Notes under the pieces: model-generated
What the model saw: the letters and a program-made list of their open reading frames with translations, nothing else
Told to the model about the DNA's origin: nothing
The model's database searches: none
Source: a virus
Direction: 5' to 3' (one strand)
DNA: 26,432 nt
Virus record (IMG/VR): IMGVR_UViG_3300032224_002712
Coordinates: 1-26,432 of that record
Position numbers and translations under genes: made by a program
Shown here: in pieces, positions 10,186-23,239 of the stretch
How the letters are laid out: each line of letters begins with the position of its first letter
How positions within the stretch are numbered: position 1 is the first letter of the stretch

Positions 10186-10653
10186 ATGGCTACTAATTTT
10201 TTGGTAGGGGGCGGTAATAAAGTAACTGTCCTTGTTAAAGCAATTGACGCAACCGTTACAGATTTATCATCTATGAACGGTGGAATAACTCGCTTAAACG
10301 GAGGTACTCAGGCTGGTTTTAATATTTCAGCCGATCAAACAGACTCTAAGGTTTTTGAAGACGAGTTAGGTTTTGCTTTTGGAATCGTTACTGGTCAGTC
10401 TTGGGATGTTCCTTGGACAGCTAACCTTATAACCGCTGACACTGGTCACGGAATTGTAAAAACAGCTGCCATCGGGGCAGTAAGCGGGAAAAAAGTAGGA
10501 ATTACTGTAGAAGTTCAAAACAATGCAGATACTGTAATTTCAAAATTAGAAGGGGTTGCTATAGTTACCAACTATTCAGAAGATTACCCCGCAGACGGAA
10601 TCCTAACTTACAATTGCACCTTCACTGGGTACGGGACTCCTGTCTTGTCATAG
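10186..10653 (+). CDS. Phage major tail tube protein
   Basis: 155 residues. The beginning (MATNFLVGGGNKVTVLV), the GG-rich second strand, and the ending in PADGILTYNCTFTGYGTPV are typical of siphophage and myophage tail tube proteins, which end with a -dGxvtfs-xFtGsG-type strand. It polymerises as stacked hexamers around the DNA channel of the tail. Length is normal. It is transcribed from its own leader after an intrinsic terminator and is followed 38 bp later by a small virion-type gene. The assignment is by end motifs and composition. Confidence 0.75.
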   Translation: MATNFLVGGGNKVTVLVKAIDATVTDLSSMNGGITRLNGGTQAGFNISADQTDSKVFEDELGFAFGIVTGQSWDVPWTANLITADTGHGIVKTAAIGAVSGKKVGITVEVQNNADTVISKLEGVAIVTNYSEDYPADGILTYNCTFTGYGTPVLS

Positions 10654-11851: not shown

Positions 11852-11922
11852 ATCTGTATTTGTCAAATTAAATCTTTTATAGGTTTATTCTAATTCAAAT
11901 TTTGCAAAGTAACTCTAATTTA

Positions 11923-11951
11923 TTGACAATTTATACACATACATATATTCA
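11923..11951 (+). promoter_or_regulatory. Promoter of the replication operon
   Basis: TTGACA (11923-11928), 17 bp, TATTCA (11946-11951) upstream of the replication gene. It does not share the TTTTAAAA block of the other family promoters. GCAAAGTA occurs twice nearby (11903-11910 and about 11959-11966), which could be regulator sites. Confidence 0.55.
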
Positions 11952-12041
11952 CTACAAGGCAAAGTACAAATTTTTGTTAGTAGATTGTTAAAAAAGTAGC
12001 CATGCTCAATTAAAATGAAGAAACGTATCAGAGGAAAATTT

Positions 12042-12866
12042 ATGCTATTCCCACTTAATCAATTGAACATAACTCCAGACTCGTTTAGGCTATTGTACGC
12101 CATTATAAGTGAGGCGTATTATGATAAGATGTGGGATACCACTCACGGGATTTTAGAAAAAAAATCAAAACTTACTCGTTACAAGGTACGAGCATCTCTA
12201 GGCGAATTAAGATCAGAAGGACTTATTACAACTAAAACTAGTACCGATGGTATAAAGATAATTCTTGGGCAAAAAATAATTGAAATGATTTATCTAGACT
12301 ATACTCGAAAAGGGGCTAGCCAAAGAACTAAGAACATGGCTGAGATAAAAAAGTCTCAACCTCCCAAACAGGAGGGAAGAGCTACGAAGAATTGCCGGAC
12401 ATCATCGACGCAGACCTCGACTCCGAATACCCCCCAGAATATTTCAAAGCCTTCTTTGAAAAGCACTTCCAAGAAAGAAGTTTTGACAGAGACAAAGAGT
12501 CAGACTCCACAACAAGTACAGACAGCTCCACAAAAACCCCCGACGAAACCACCAACAACCAAACGCCCATCAACAAACCCACCGACAAGCCAAAAGCTAA
12601 AGGCTTCGGATAAAAAGCCTTATATCACTACTAGAGGGACTCTCTATAAGTTTTTTGAGGATTGGCTTGGATATTACGAACAATTAAGCCCACTGGATAT
12701 CATCTGTATCAAAAACGATGACCAGAAAATGATGCGTTATTGGAAGGGATTCCATGATTATGCTCGTTGCTGGTTGAGTCGTAATCGTCAGATAGAGAGA
12801 CCTGAAAAAAACATAAACAAAATTAAGATGATGAAACAATTTGCTGCACTAGCAAAAGTTAGTTAG
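12042..12866 (+). CDS. Phage replication initiator / helicase-loader-like protein (frame-0 product)
   Basis: 274 residues from the ATG at 12042, chosen because GAGGA (12031-12035) lies 6 bp before it; the ATG at 12015 has no clear ribosome binding site. Residues about 1-85 look like a winged helix (LNITPDSFRLLYAIISEAY, then LTRYKVRASLGELRSEGLI). Residues about 95-200 are a low-complexity K/T/P/Q/S linker. Residues 205-274 are a separate aromatic, basic domain. This build, directly upstream of DnaB, is typical of phage O-like or DnaD-like proteins that bind an origin and load the helicase. The linker is dual-coding: the -1 frame is open and protein-like, and a slippery site is present at 12347-12353. 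Confidence 0.75.
   Translation: MLFPLNQLNITPDSFRLLYAIISEAYYDKMWDTTHGILEKKSKLTRYKVRASLGELRSEGLITTKTSTDGIKIILGQKIIEMIYLDYTRKGASQRTKNMAEIKKSQPPKQEGRATKNCRTSSTQTSTPNTPQNISKPSLKSTSKKEVLTETKSQTPQQVQTAPQKPPTKPPTTKRPSTNPPTSQKLKASDKKPYITTRGTLYKFFEDWLGYYEQLSPLDIICIKNDDQKMMRYWKGFHDYARCWLSRNRQIERPEKNINKIKMMKQFAALAKVS
12347..12381 (+). promoter_or_regulatory. Candidate -1 ribosomal frameshift site (A AAA AAG plus stem-loop)
   Basis: In the zero frame the codons are ATA AAA AAG, which places the heptamer A AAA AAG at 12347-12353 in exactly the phase used by dnaX. Six bases later CCTCC (12360-12364) pairs with GGAGG (12371-12375) around a 6-nt loop, and CTC (12355-12357) can pair with GAG (12379-12381) to extend the stem. 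An AGGAGG Shine-Dalgarno-like sequence lies within the stem. Frameshifting itself is inferred. Confidence 0.6.
12353..12613 (+). CDS. Alternative C-terminus of the replication protein read in the -1 frame
   Basis: After a -1 slip at 12353 the frame stays open for 86 residues to the TAA at 12611-12613. The fusion would have 104 shared residues plus 86 new ones (190 aa). The new part is much more protein-like than the frame-0 linker over the same bases: GGKSYEELPDIIDADLDSEY, PPEYFKAFFEKHFQE, then an acidic S/T/D tail. In this frame many codons end in C (GAC, ATC, TAC, TTC, CAC), unlike the rest of the window. Those C bases are the second codon positions that give Ser/Thr/Pro in frame 0. Independent start at TTG 12392 is possible but AGGAGG is 16 bp away. 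Confidence 0.5.
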   Translation, partial: VSTSQTGGKSYEELPDIIDADLDSEYPPEYFKAFFEKHFQERSFDRDKESDSTTSTDSSTKTPDETTNNQTPINKPTDKPKAKGFG

Positions 12867-12939
12867 CTTTTTTTCTCGAAACAAGCGATAATGTTTTTTG
12901 TCTCAACAAGTTTGTGAATTAATAAATAAAGAGGTTTGC

Positions 12940-14295
12940 ATGACAACGCAAGGGCAATTACCCCCCAACTCATTATCAGGAGAGGAAGGTCTATTAGGAC
13001 TACTACTAATGAATAGTGATAACCTTCTCGCCATTATCCAAGAATTAAATGTTAGTGATTTCTATTCACCAGCCCACCAAAAGATTTATGCAGCGATAAA
13101 GCGATTGCACCAAGAAAATAAACCAGTAGACTTGATGACGGTCACACTGGCTTTAGAAACAGTAAATCATTTGACAAGTGTGGGAGGGAAGCCCAAGCTT
13201 GCTAGTTTAGTGGAACAAGGCTATATGTGTTACAACCCTTTAGAGGTTGCTTATGTTATTAAACATAATAGCATAAAACGGAAGCTATTATCTGCAACAC
13301 ATGGACTAGCTGGCGAACTTTACGACCCAACTACAAACGCTTTAGATTTAATCCAAGAATATACGAAGTTTTTTCTTGAGCTGGGAGATAGGTTGCGTCC
13401 TACAGCAAATGGACTGCGAGATATTGAGACAATAATGCCAGATGTATTGGATGACATCGAAAAACTGAATAGCGAAGAAGATATTGCCTCCCTCAAGACG
13501 GGTCTATATGACTTAGACAAGCTTACGGGTGGATTACCAGGCAGCACTCTTACTCTTGTATTAGGTCGTACTGGAATGGGAAAAACAACGACTTCGGTAC
13601 AGATGGCAATAAATCTAGCTGAACAAGGTAAGAACGTTTGTTATTTTTCTATAGAGATGTCAGCCGTTCAGCTAGTCAAGAAAATAATGGCAAGAACGAT
13701 AGCAGGGAACGACCCTCGCCCAAAACTTAGTGCATCAAGTCTTTTCCGCAGCCAAGGGTTAAAAGATGCTCGAGATCTTGAGATTTTTATTTCTGCTATT
13801 CCAGATGCAACGAAACTGAGTCTTTTGATAGACGATTATGCTAAAACAACAGTCAGTCATGTCCGGAATGAATTAACCAAACTAGTTCAAAGAGGACTTA
13901 AACCTGATGCTGTCTTTATTGATTATATAGGCATCATGAAAGGCGAATCAAAGAACCAGAACAGGGTGTTAGAATTAGACAATACCCTTAGAGAATTAAA
14001 CGTAATTGCGAAGGAGTTTGACGTGGCGGTTGTTGGATTAGCTCAAATCAATCGAGCCGTAGAGTCTCAATCTGATAAACGTCCAGGATTAAAGGATATC
14101 CGAGAGTCGGGTGGATACGAACAAGAAGCAGCTCTTGCTATAGGCTTATACAATGCTGACTACTATAAATCCGAGGACTCCCCTGATACAGGAATTCTAG
14201 AGATGATCGTGCTTAAAAACCGTTTTGGTCCAACTGGGACGGTTAAGGTAGGTTTCCAGCCACAGTACAACCGACTTCTCAACTTAGGCTTGTAA
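12940..14295 (+). CDS. dnaB: Replicative DNA helicase DnaB
   Basis: 451 residues, the normal DnaB length. ATG 12940 is chosen because AAAGAGG lies 5 bp before it and the protein then begins with the family pattern MTTQGQLPPNSLSGEEGLLG; a TTG at 12898 would add 14 unlikely residues. N-terminal primase-interaction domain about 8-110. RecA-like domain: Walker A GRTGMGKT (209-216), catalytic E239 in YFSIEM, Walker B VFIDY (D328), the AQINRAVE/DKRPGLKDIRESG segment (369-391), and R428 in KNRFGPTG as the arginine finger. It unwinds DNA ahead of the fork as a hexamer, probably loaded by the upstream protein. No intein or insertion. Confidence 0.95.
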   Translation: MTTQGQLPPNSLSGEEGLLGLLLMNSDNLLAIIQELNVSDFYSPAHQKIYAAIKRLHQENKPVDLMTVTLALETVNHLTSVGGKPKLASLVEQGYMCYNPLEVAYVIKHNSIKRKLLSATHGLAGELYDPTTNALDLIQEYTKFFLELGDRLRPTANGLRDIETIMPDVLDDIEKLNSEEDIASLKTGLYDLDKLTGGLPGSTLTLVLGRTGMGKTTTSVQMAINLAEQGKNVCYFSIEMSAVQLVKKIMARTIAGNDPRPKLSASSLFRSQGLKDARDLEIFISAIPDATKLSLLIDDYAKTTVSHVRNELTKLVQRGLKPDAVFIDYIGIMKGESKNQNRVLELDNTLRELNVIAKEFDVAVVGLAQINRAVESQSDKRPGLKDIRESGGYEQEAALAIGLYNADYYKSEDSPDTGILEMIVLKNRFGPTGTVKVGFQPQYNRLLNLGL

Positions 14296-19342: not shown

Positions 19343-19975
19343 ATGAAGAATATTTTAAAATTTTGCTTGCTATTAGGTGGGGTATTTGTAGATATGAATT
19401 CTTGTCCTGCTATGGCTGCTACAGTAGGGCGCATTACTATCGCCGGAGATGCTAGTTTAACTCCCACACAATTAAAATTTGCCAACAATTCCGCCATCCT
19501 GACATCTTCGTTTTTTTCTGGTGGGATAGACACAGACGGGAATCTACTACCCAATTTAAGGCTTAATGGATTTGTGGCTATTCAACCTATCAACTTGTCT
19601 CCATTGGGAACTGTAGGAGGTGGACGACCTAGCGCTATTAGCCCATTAATCGCCAATAATCTTTATTTTTACCCTCAAAACCCTGGCGAAGATGGAACTA
19701 ACTTTATCAGTGGCAGTCAACAATTTATTGGGGCTACCTTCAATGGAAATTGGAAAATTCCTACTGCAAATGGAGTTTATAAATTTCCTGGTCAAATTAG
19801 TATAAGTGCACAGGGAATCCCTACTAATCAAAGTTTTTCTATTAGCGGAATAGCTTTATCTCCTGTAGAATTTATCGAGGATGAAACTATACCCGAACCC
19901 AGTATGATTCTAGGCTCTTTATTTGGAATTAGTTTAATTTCTATCCTGCGTACTTCGTTGAAAACTAATAATTAA
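19343..19975 (+). CDS. PEP-CTERM sorting-domain protein
   Basis: 210 residues. N-terminal signal peptide (MKNILKFCLLLGGVF, likely cleavage after CPAMA near residue 25). The middle is a beta-rich secreted region without known motif. The C-terminus has the full PEP-CTERM tripartite signal: IPEPS (183-187), a hydrophobic stretch (188-202) and a basic end RTSLK. Such proteins are processed by exosortase and attached to the surface or released into the extracellular matrix, and are frequent in cyanobacteria. It follows terminase by 54 bp on the same strand and ends at a terminator. Its presence among phage genes suggests host-derived cargo. Confidence 0.85.
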   Translation: MKNILKFCLLLGGVFVDMNSCPAMAATVGRITIAGDASLTPTQLKFANNSAILTSSFFSGGIDTDGNLLPNLRLNGFVAIQPINLSPLGTVGGGRPSAISPLIANNLYFYPQNPGEDGTNFISGSQQFIGATFNGNWKIPTANGVYKFPGQISISAQGIPTNQSFSISGIALSPVEFIEDETIPEPSMILGSLFGISLISILRTSLKTNN

Positions 19976-21703: not shown

Positions 21704-22012
21704 TCAATGCTTAATAATTTTTAACCAATTTTTCCGTAACTGCAAAGCCCCTGGGGAAAAGTTTTTAGGATCTGCAAGGACATACTCATCAATCAAAAAC
21801 TTGATCTGCTCCTTAGTCTCGTGTAATAACTTTTTTTTGTTTCTTGCAATAGCACATATATTGAGTCTAGGATCATCGATAATTAGTAGCGGGGATTTTC
21901 CTGCGTTGTCATCTTGGGAGTAAGGGAATAAGATTATCTCTGGCTTAAACCAGTAAGTTTTTTTGTTCAGCTCAACACGGTCAATGGCAAGGCAATTATC
22001 AATGTCTGGCAT
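21704..22012 (-). CDS. Unknown protein after the tail chaperone extension (102 aa)
   Basis: Not recognised. Sequence starts MPDIDNCLAIDRVELN and ends with a basic helix (QLRKNWLKIIKH). It overlaps the end of the chaperone extension ORF by 14 bp and is probably translated with it. In many phages the tape measure gene follows this position, but this protein is far too short for that, and no tape measure is in the window. Confidence 0.6.
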   Translation of the reverse strand: MPDIDNCLAIDRVELNKKTYWFKPEIILFPYSQDDNAGKSPLLIIDDPRLNICAIARNKKKLLHETKEQIKFLIDEYVLADPKNFSPGALQLRKNWLKIIKH

Positions 22013-22703
22013 TAGGTAACCCTCTTACAAGATTTGTCATTACTAAGTAATAGTTAGAGTAGCTCATGGTAACAATGTTGGATTCACTTTCAGGAGTAAC
22101 GATCCGAATAATGTTATCTGGGTTATCAACAGATTTAAGCAACATCGACGGGTGCTCATTTCTATCAACTTCCCAGATAGCCAAAAACCCACAGAAAAGC
22201 TTCTGTCCTACTATTGCAGGGCAAATAACTAATACATTACAATCAACTCCGACAAACGCCCTTTTTTTAGCTATTCTCCCTTTATCTTTGAGTGCAGCTA
22301 GTTCTTTTATTGGTAGCAATCCCACAACCCAATTAGATAAGACTTCATCTTTTACTAATGAGAAAAAGGTAGTAGCTACATCTGGGCTAATATCTGAGGT
22401 GGCATCAGGTTTAAAGTAGAAGAAATCGGACGGCGTAACCCCAGAGCCCTTCTTGGGGTCTTTATTGGCATTAACAAAATAGCTGGTGAGTGTCGCCAGA
22501 CCAAGCTCTTGGTAATGCAGGTCTTCCTTGTAAAATCTGTGTCCATACTCTAGTGCCTGAAAAATAATATTGATGGGAGTATTACCGAAATTCTCATAAT
22601 TAAATCTTGGGTCGTGAGGAAAATACTTGTGTACTCTCCAAAAAATCTCGACCCAATCTATATCTATGCTGCTGCTTCCTCCTCTACTTTCACCCCTTTG
22701 ATT
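21999..22703 (-). CDS. Tail assembly chaperone frameshift extension (gpT-like, no own start)
   Basis: In the -1 frame relative to the 22664 gene, sequence is open from 22703 to the stop at 21999 (234 residues), with in-frame TGA codons just upstream of the slippery site. The first 110 codons have no ATG, GTG or TTG that could serve as start, yet read as good protein (IDWVEIFWRVHKYFPHD, then ALEYGHRFYKEDLHY, then KKGSGVTPSDFFYFKP). The first usable start is GTG 22325, which would discard half of it. This is the arrangement of lambda G and G-T, where -1 frameshifting makes a fusion needed for tail assembly. The fusion would be 179 + 234 = 413 residues. Confidence 0.7.
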   Translation of the reverse strand, partial: NQRGESRGGSSSIDIDWVEIFWRVHKYFPHDPRFNYENFGNTPINIIFQALEYGHRFYKEDLHYQELGLATLTSYFVNANKDPKKGSGVTPSDFFYFKPDATSDISPDVATTFFSLVKDEVLSNWVVGLLPIKELAALKDKGRIAKKRAFVGVDCNVLVICPAIVGQKLFCGFLAIWEVDRNEHPSMLLKSVDNPDNIIRIVTPESESNIVTMSYSNYYLVMTNLVRGLPNARH

Positions 22704-23239
22704 TTTTTTACTGTCACCGCTTCTTCAATATCATCCGCGTCTAACTCTTCTAGAGGGAGTTTTCCTCTATTCATTTCTTTTATGCAGAATAACTCTAAAT
22801 GTCTCAATAACCGAGTTGGGACTAAGTTAGGATTTCCTACGTCTTTTATTGTCCATTCTGCACACTCAGGACATCTGAACCTTAACATAACATATGCGTA
22901 AATAAGTCGTTTAATCCCCGCGTTTTCTTCTTGGACTCGGCGTAATCCCATTAGTCCTTCCATATCGCCTTTCATCAGTTTGGAAGCGTCGTTATTGCGA
23001 ACGGACTCCCAAACCTCTTCTACAGGAGTTCCCGTCTTTTCCGAAATATTATTTACCAACTTAATGAGCATTTGCTCAGTATCTGGCAATTCTTTTATTT
23101 CTTCATCAATCATCATTTTCTCGTTAGGAGTAAGGTCATCGTAACGAGGTAATGCAATTGTCCCAGACCGTTCATCTCCAATAATCACTAAATCTTGTTT
23201 AACCGGCTTAGTAACAAAAGGAAGTGACTTAACTGCCAT
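22664..23239 (-). CDS. Phage tail assembly chaperone (gpG-like)
   Basis: 191 residues. Helical and acidic, with a pattern seen in phage tail assembly chaperones: LTPNEKMMIDEEI near residues 36-48, then AYVMLRFRCPECAEWTIKD and LLRHLELFCIKEMNRG toward the C-terminus. A CPEC pair is present. The last ~12 codons include VTVKKIKG, where GTA AAA AAA forms an A AAA AAA slippery heptamer. It is transcribed divergently from the connector operon at 23316. Such proteins bind the tape measure and recruit tail tube subunits. The assignment combines sequence pattern and frameshift architecture. Confidence 0.65.
   Translation of the reverse strand: MAVKSLPFVTKPVKQDLVIIGDERSGTIALPRYDDLTPNEKMMIDEEIKELPDTEQMLIKLVNNISEKTGTPVEEVWESVRNNDASKLMKGDMEGLMGLRRVQEENAGIKRLIYAYVMLRFRCPECAEWTIKDVGNPNLVPTRLLRHLELFCIKEMNRGKLPLEELDADDIEEAVTVKKIKGVKVEEEAAA
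22703..22709 (-). promoter_or_regulatory. Candidate -1 frameshift slippery site A AAA AAA
   Basis: On the minus strand, codons GTA AAA AAA ATC contain eight A in a row with the heptamer in the correct phase. It lies 12 codons before the stop of the zero-frame gene and leads into the start-less ORF down to 21999. A purine-rich GAGGAGG sequence follows about 20 nt downstream; no strong stem was seen. Confidence 0.65.

Follow-up and report, generated by a model that had tools for sequence, protein, structure and literature searches.

Does a phage gene predicted to act in the initiation of DNA replication encode a second protein in an overlapping reading frame and, if so, by what route would ribosomes reach that frame? 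The gene occupies positions 12042-12866 of the window, the whole 26,432-nt stretch of DNA that was analyzed (positions 1 to 26,432 of IMG/VR virus record IMGVR_UViG_3300032224_002712). A first-pass annotation, made from the sequence alone, had proposed two proteins sharing one winged helix, the shorter of them produced by a programmed -1 frameshift, and the comparisons reported here support that proposal. That the -1 product is real, is under selection and is made by ribosomal frameshifting is very likely, with a probability of about 0.87; the frameshifting itself is inferred, there being no expression, ribosome-profiling or mass-spectrometry data. All comparative results rest on five related, uncultured sequences from one phage group. 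The features of the locus are these:

12042..12866, plus strand: frame-0 gene, predicted to encode a full-length winged-helix replication initiator or DnaB recruiter of 274 aa; open in the five homologous sequences
12042..12353, plus strand: N-terminal winged helix and long helix, residues 1-104, predicted in both products (AlphaFold2, Foldseek, omega)
12347..12353, plus strand: slippery heptamer A_AAA_AAG (codons ATA AAA AAG, 12345-12353), identical in 5/5
12353..12613, plus strand: -1 reading frame, an 86-codon alternative C-terminus, VSTSQTGGKSYEELPDIIDADLDS...KAKGFG, with the same stop in 5/5
12354..12611, plus strand: frame-0 basic linker rich in K/T/P/Q/S over the overlap DNA, predicted disordered (pLDDT <50, residues 110-190)
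12360..12375, plus strand: hairpin CCTCC-CAAACA-GGAGG, 6 nt after the heptamer, the minimum-energy structure in 5/5
12386..12475, plus strand: conserved core of the -1 tail, from alignments of homologs
12599..12613, plus strand: invariant KGFG-stop, C-terminus of the predicted -1 product, in 5/5 sequences
12624..12866, plus strand: frame-0 C-terminal four-helix domain, missing from the predicted frameshift product (AlphaFold2 helices, residues 199-273, pLDDT about 70)
12940..14295, plus strand: DnaB-type replicative helicase, likely partner of the initiator (Pfam DnaB_C, E 3.3e-58; DnaB, E 4.6e-21)

The gene, its relatives and its neighbors

Homologs were sought in phage and plasmid collections, genome contigs and IMG/VR, using the initiator, the -1 tail, DnaB and the major tail protein as queries. 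Four IMG/VR contigs, L004 (the same as L001), L005 (the same as L002), L006 and L013, bring the set to five sequences with the window included, and their frame-0 products are 77, 77, 70 and 64% identical to that of the window, respectively. Beyond these four contigs, no initiator gene was found in the collections searched, and no relative of it was seen in those examined, a subset, of the more distant DnaB contigs (L014-L027). The phages, all uncultured and belonging to one group, are probably cyanobacterial, the nearest named phage by terminase being Synechococcus phage S-CBS4 at 38% identity; the host is not established. S-CBS4 encodes a RecA-family ATPase, and its annotation includes no counterpart of the initiator.

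A common gene order is found in all five contigs: a tail-protein pair, a divergent HTH regulator, the initiator, and then dnaB directly downstream of it, after which come a small helix-turn-helix-like ORF and a gene on the minus strand. L013 differs in lacking an additional small minus-strand gene beside the HTH regulator. Frame 0 of the initiator gene comprises 274 open codons beginning with the ATG at 12042. An upstream ATG at 12015 is not conserved, and the start at 12042 is preferred because L001 and L002 carry TAA as the second codon after that upstream ATG. The longest-ORF start at 12015 misleads, and annotation of the initiator should begin at 12042.

Profile searches returned no Pfam match for the initiator and only marginal PHROG matches, to O-like and DnaD-like phage replication proteins (PHROG 678, 186, 345; E 0.002-0.05). 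The earlier label of helicase loader is tentative. An AlphaFold2 model built on the five-sequence alignment places residues 1-80 in a block with pLDDT of 63-91 and secondary structure H-E-H-H-E-E, followed by a helix spanning residues 77-104. Foldseek matches to the model are winged-helix DNA-binding proteins, with weak viral matches that include phage replication initiators. Taken with gene order, the predictions describe an N-terminal winged helix, a linker and a C-terminal domain, with DnaB adjoining. The heptamer occupies codons 102-104, which places the slip site where the long helix, and with it the winged-helix unit, ends. That the gene product is a winged-helix, O/DnaD-like initiator or replisome organizer remains possible on weak profile matches only; a role in replication is supported by the position of the gene and by the place at which the domains are cut, and rests on those same weak matches and on gene order.

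The end of the winged helix, at 12257-12326 (residues about 73-95 of the initiator), exists in two versions. One, LGQ.IIEMIYLDYT, occurs in the window and L005; the other, LMPVLV[DE]MIYKD[YF]KR, occurs in L004, L006 and L013. This distribution may cross the overall relatedness of the sequences, which suggests recombination or two DNA-binding types.

Selection on two overlapping frames

The -1 frame has 86 codons (12353-12610) before its TAA stop at 12611-12613. All five sequences keep it open and share the position of its K-x-KGFG-stop ending, and the indels that separate the homologs in the overlap all come in multiples of 3. The most informative homolog is L013, in which the tail is just 50% identical yet retains YESVPEILNADLDSESPPDYFKAFFTRHFQE. 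Conservation is concentrated in a core with the pattern Y-E-x-x-P-[DE]-I-[IL]-[DN]-A-[DE]-LDSxxPP-[ED]-YFKAFFx-[KR]-HFQE. The tail is predicted to be disordered except for a weak helix at PPEYFKAFFEKHF (tail residues 29-39), and the peptide SYEELPDIIDADLDSEYPPEYFK belongs to the predicted short product. No Pfam, PHROG or PDB relative of the -1 tail was found, PDB matches at E 1.1 being chance, and the five records hold no second copy of it.

The two frames encode regions of opposite charge. In the window, the -1 tail has 18 D/E vs 11 K/R while the frame-0 linker has 4 D/E vs 16 K/R, and across the five sequences the ranges are 13-18 D/E vs 6-11 K/R for the acidic tail and 2-5 D/E vs 16-18 K/R for the basic linker. 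Codons ending in C account for 42 of the 86 in the -1 frame, as against 13 of 101 in the winged-helix part of the gene.

Selection was assessed by omega, from our own likelihood fit of a codon model to each region of the five sequences. Frame 0 is under strong constraint on either side of the overlap, with omega of 0.074 in the winged helix and 0.091 downstream. For the first 42 codons of the overlap, frame-0 omega is 3.1, as for an unselected frame, and it is the -1 frame that yields a low value, 0.154, and omega=1 fits worse there by 16 log units. Over the remaining codons of the overlap, omega is 0.36 for frame 0 and 1.4 for the -1 frame, so that, KGFG apart, no purifying selection was found on the second half of the -1 tail. 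As a control, 30 windows of the dnaB alignment gave -1 omega values from 1.8 to 20, never below 1.8; the value of 0.154 is therefore far outside the range for an unused frame here. Variability in the core at -1 codon positions 1, 2 and 3 is 0.138, 0.076 and 0.31, with the -1 wobble position holding 16 of the 28 variable sites (columns 13-41). The regional omega values and this wobble pattern together indicate that the hidden frame governs the sequence over the first half of the overlap, and that over the second half frame 0 is the main influence. Synonymous change in frame 0 is likewise reduced: among codon pairs that encode the same residue, the proportion with a synonymous difference drops to 0.25 in the overlap, from 0.52 upstream and 0.48 downstream. 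Conservation is seen in both frames, and selection on the -1 frame as a protein covers its first half.

Several calculations bear on how often such a frame would arise without selection. Across the 6182 frame-0 codon positions in the genes of the window, only 0.065% precede 86 or more -1 codons without a stop. When synonymous codons were redrawn without altering the frame-0 protein, 0-0.25% of trials kept the -1 frame open, and the average number of stops was 5.6-8.1; when evolution was simulated under a frame-0-only codon model, 0-0.3% of runs preserved the open -1 frame in every one of the four relatives. The most distant homolog is identical at 26 of 42 core -1 columns, compared with a simulated mean of 10-14.

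What the first-pass annotation had said of the overlap thus held: an 86-codon, D/E-rich open -1 frame, an abundance of C-ending codons within it, and a sequence that both frames shape, now divided between the -1 protein in the first half and frame 0 in the second. It had also named outcomes that would refute it, namely stops in the -1 frame of homologs, loss of the heptamer phase, or homologs that join the acidic sequence to the C-terminal domain in one frame, and none of these was observed. Compensating indels are rejected on the last of these grounds.

The route into the -1 frame

The codons ATA AAA AAG are kept in the window and in all four homologs, and they set A_AAA_AAG at 12347-12353 in the frame-0 phase used by dnaX. 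With amino acids held fixed, the three codons came out identical in all five sequences in only 0.035% of simulations (chance 0.00035), and ATAAAAAAGTCTCAA (15 nt) ranks among the two longest stretches of the initiator gene without variation. Among the in-phase A_AAA_AAG sites in the genes of the window, only this one precedes a -1 frame of more than 2 codons. Downstream, the stem is formed by CCTCC (12360-12364) and GGAGG (12371-12375), and the minimum-energy hairpin starts 5-6 nt past the heptamer in all five sequences. Its outer pair varies on both sides, being C-G in three sequences, U-A in L006 and G-C in L013. The earlier claims of a heptamer in dnaX phase and of a stem 6 nt beyond it both held, and both elements are kept in 5/5.

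Structures 5-8 nt downstream of a slip site are typical stimulators (PMC4066793), and A_AAA_AAG combined with a structure at that distance is an established bacterial -1 signal (PMC4066793, PMC3711429). The hairpin here is small (5-6 bp) and of modest stability, with z of -0.4 to -2.0, many shuffled sequences being equally stable. Inspection of the aligned homologs by eye found no conserved Shine-Dalgarno-like stimulator just upstream of the heptamer. Such an element occurs in E. coli dnaX and is optional, -1 frameshifting in general not requiring one. Because the hairpin is unexceptional against shuffles and no upstream stimulator is evident, the efficiency of frameshifting may be moderate.

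Ribosomal -1 frameshifting is the best mechanism because two of the five homologs have no start codon at the sole candidate internal start. The rival that this observation addresses treats the -1 frame as a separate small gene, in which ribosomes would bind at AGGAGG (12370-12375) and start at TTG 12392. In its favor, AGGAGG is a perfect Shine-Dalgarno sequence and is followed by TTG in the window and L004 or by GTG in L005. The candidate codon is TTC in L006 and GTC in L013, however, with no other ATG, GTG or TTG there in the -1 frame, which excludes an internal start for at least two homologs. In addition, the spacing from AGGAGG to the codon would be 13-16 nt, L013 carries AGAGGGGG in place of AGGAGG, and residues ahead of the candidate codon (V-S, Y) are conserved too. 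We consider this explanation very unlikely.

It is also very unlikely that RNA polymerase, rather than the ribosome, slips on the A run and adds an A, giving the same fusion protein by programmed transcriptional realignment. The product and the A-rich site would be identical, and some dnaX genes do use slippage (PMC3711429). Against this, the run is six A in all five sequences, whereas slippage-prone runs of A or T are reported to be longer than 7 (PMC3711429), and the codon phase, the final G and the hairpin at 5-6 nt are kept in 5/5, as ribosomal slippage predicts.

A third rival, similarly improbable, holds that what is conserved in the overlap is a DNA element, a replication origin inside the initiator gene for example, and that the open -1 frame is a by-product. 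Initiator genes of the lambda type carry the origin inside gene O, and synonymous sites in the overlap are indeed constrained. An origin leaves unexplained, however, why variation in the core tracks -1 codon positions, and the -1 stop is in the same place in all five sequences. A search of 11900-12960 found no iteron-like repeats, only one 10-mer direct-repeat pair attributable to chance.

The weakest rival attributes the open -1 frame to chance, given the composition of frame 0 (a linker rich in Thr, Pro, Ser and Lys, with C as the second codon base). It is all but excluded: second-position C does remove many possible -1 stops, but the frame stays open in no more than 0.25% of codon resamplings and 0.3% of simulations, and its amino acids are conserved beyond the simulated mean.

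Proposed working and known parallels

Under the frameshifting model, two proteins would be made from one start. Most ribosomes would remain in frame 0 and complete the initiator with its flexible basic linker; this full-length form would bind origin DNA, and its C-terminal helical domain would recruit the DnaB encoded by the adjoining gene. Some ribosomes would slip back one base at A_AAA_AAG, aided by the hairpin 6 nt downstream, and terminate 86 codons later, giving a winged helix with an acidic tail and without the C-terminal domain. What the short form would do is a matter for speculation. On the same origin DNA it may tune or end initiation, or it may instead bring in another partner through the conserved YFKAFFxKHF helix, and it could compete with the full-length form or join mixed assemblies. 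The earlier idea that the acidic tail is a partner or regulator of DnaB likewise remains speculative, with no binding data, and a regulatory role for the short form is a conjecture that we are slightly more inclined to doubt than to accept. In a bolder reading, the phage would use frameshifting to set the proportions of two isoforms of the initiator, one a full-length helicase recruiter and the other a winged helix with an acidic tail that mimics DNA or binds a partner; this we offer tentatively, the balance tipping a little against it. If it were true, shared origin binding would make the efficiency of frameshifting a built-in control on origin firing.

The closest parallel is bacterial dnaX, the tau/gamma gene, which has the same heptamer in the same phase and a downstream hairpin, also within a gene for DNA replication, and in which gamma, the shorter product, retains the N-terminal domains and loses the C-terminal domain, as predicted here. 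The differences are that the proteins are unrelated, that the -1 frame runs for 86 conserved codons here as opposed to a near-immediate stop in dnaX, and that the initiator has a smaller hairpin and no conserved upstream Shine-Dalgarno-like stimulator that we could see. A frameshift in the initiator would thus be a counterpart of the dnaX device in a gene with a separate origin.

Ribosomal frameshifts in tailed phages have been documented mainly in tail and capsid genes (PMC5009743). The lambda G/GT tail chaperone and the phage capsid extensions (PMC5009743) resemble the present case as -1 shifts in tailed phages that yield a minor alternative C-terminus, but they involve structural or assembly genes whose protein is extended past a nearby stop, whereas the shift proposed here shortens a replication protein over dual-coding DNA. 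Potyvirus P3N-PIPO (PMC5009743) offers a similar arrangement, with a common N-terminal part and an alternative C-terminus drawn from an overlapping frame in mid-gene; it belongs to an RNA plant virus and arises by polymerase slippage, unlike this DNA phage gene with its ribosomal slip signal. Phage O-like and DnaD-like initiators and replisome organizers, represented by the PHROG families matched above, share the winged helix, flexible linker, C-terminal helices and adjoining DnaB; their sequence similarity to the present protein is marginal, and our searches turned up no frameshift product reported for any of them. In the open-access literature searched, we found no description of frameshifting in the gene for a phage replication initiator or helicase loader. 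Within the limits of that search, this would be the first conserved frameshift in a replication initiator whose dual-coding DNA also specifies an alternative tail under selection. The overlap also offers a tidy natural example of DNA partitioned between two reading frames.

Three other loci in the window drew our attention. On the minus strand at 21999-23239, a 191-aa ORF has an 8-A run near its end (codons GTA AAA AAA A..., about 22702-22709), after which the -1 frame is open for 234 codons with no early start codon. The pair resembles a G/GT-type frameshift or slippage pair of tail assembly chaperones; PHROG assigned it no function. The ORF at 19343-19975 has a signal-like N-terminus and a C-terminal segment, PEPSMILGSLFGISLISILR, that resembles a PEP-CTERM sorting signal; it has no PHROG match, would be unusual cargo for a phage, and gives a hint of a cyanobacterial host. 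Finally, 10186-10653 encodes a very conserved protein (FNISADQTDSKVFEDELGFAFG...) with a weak match to major tail protein (PHROG 1407, E 1e-7), a good marker for this phage group.
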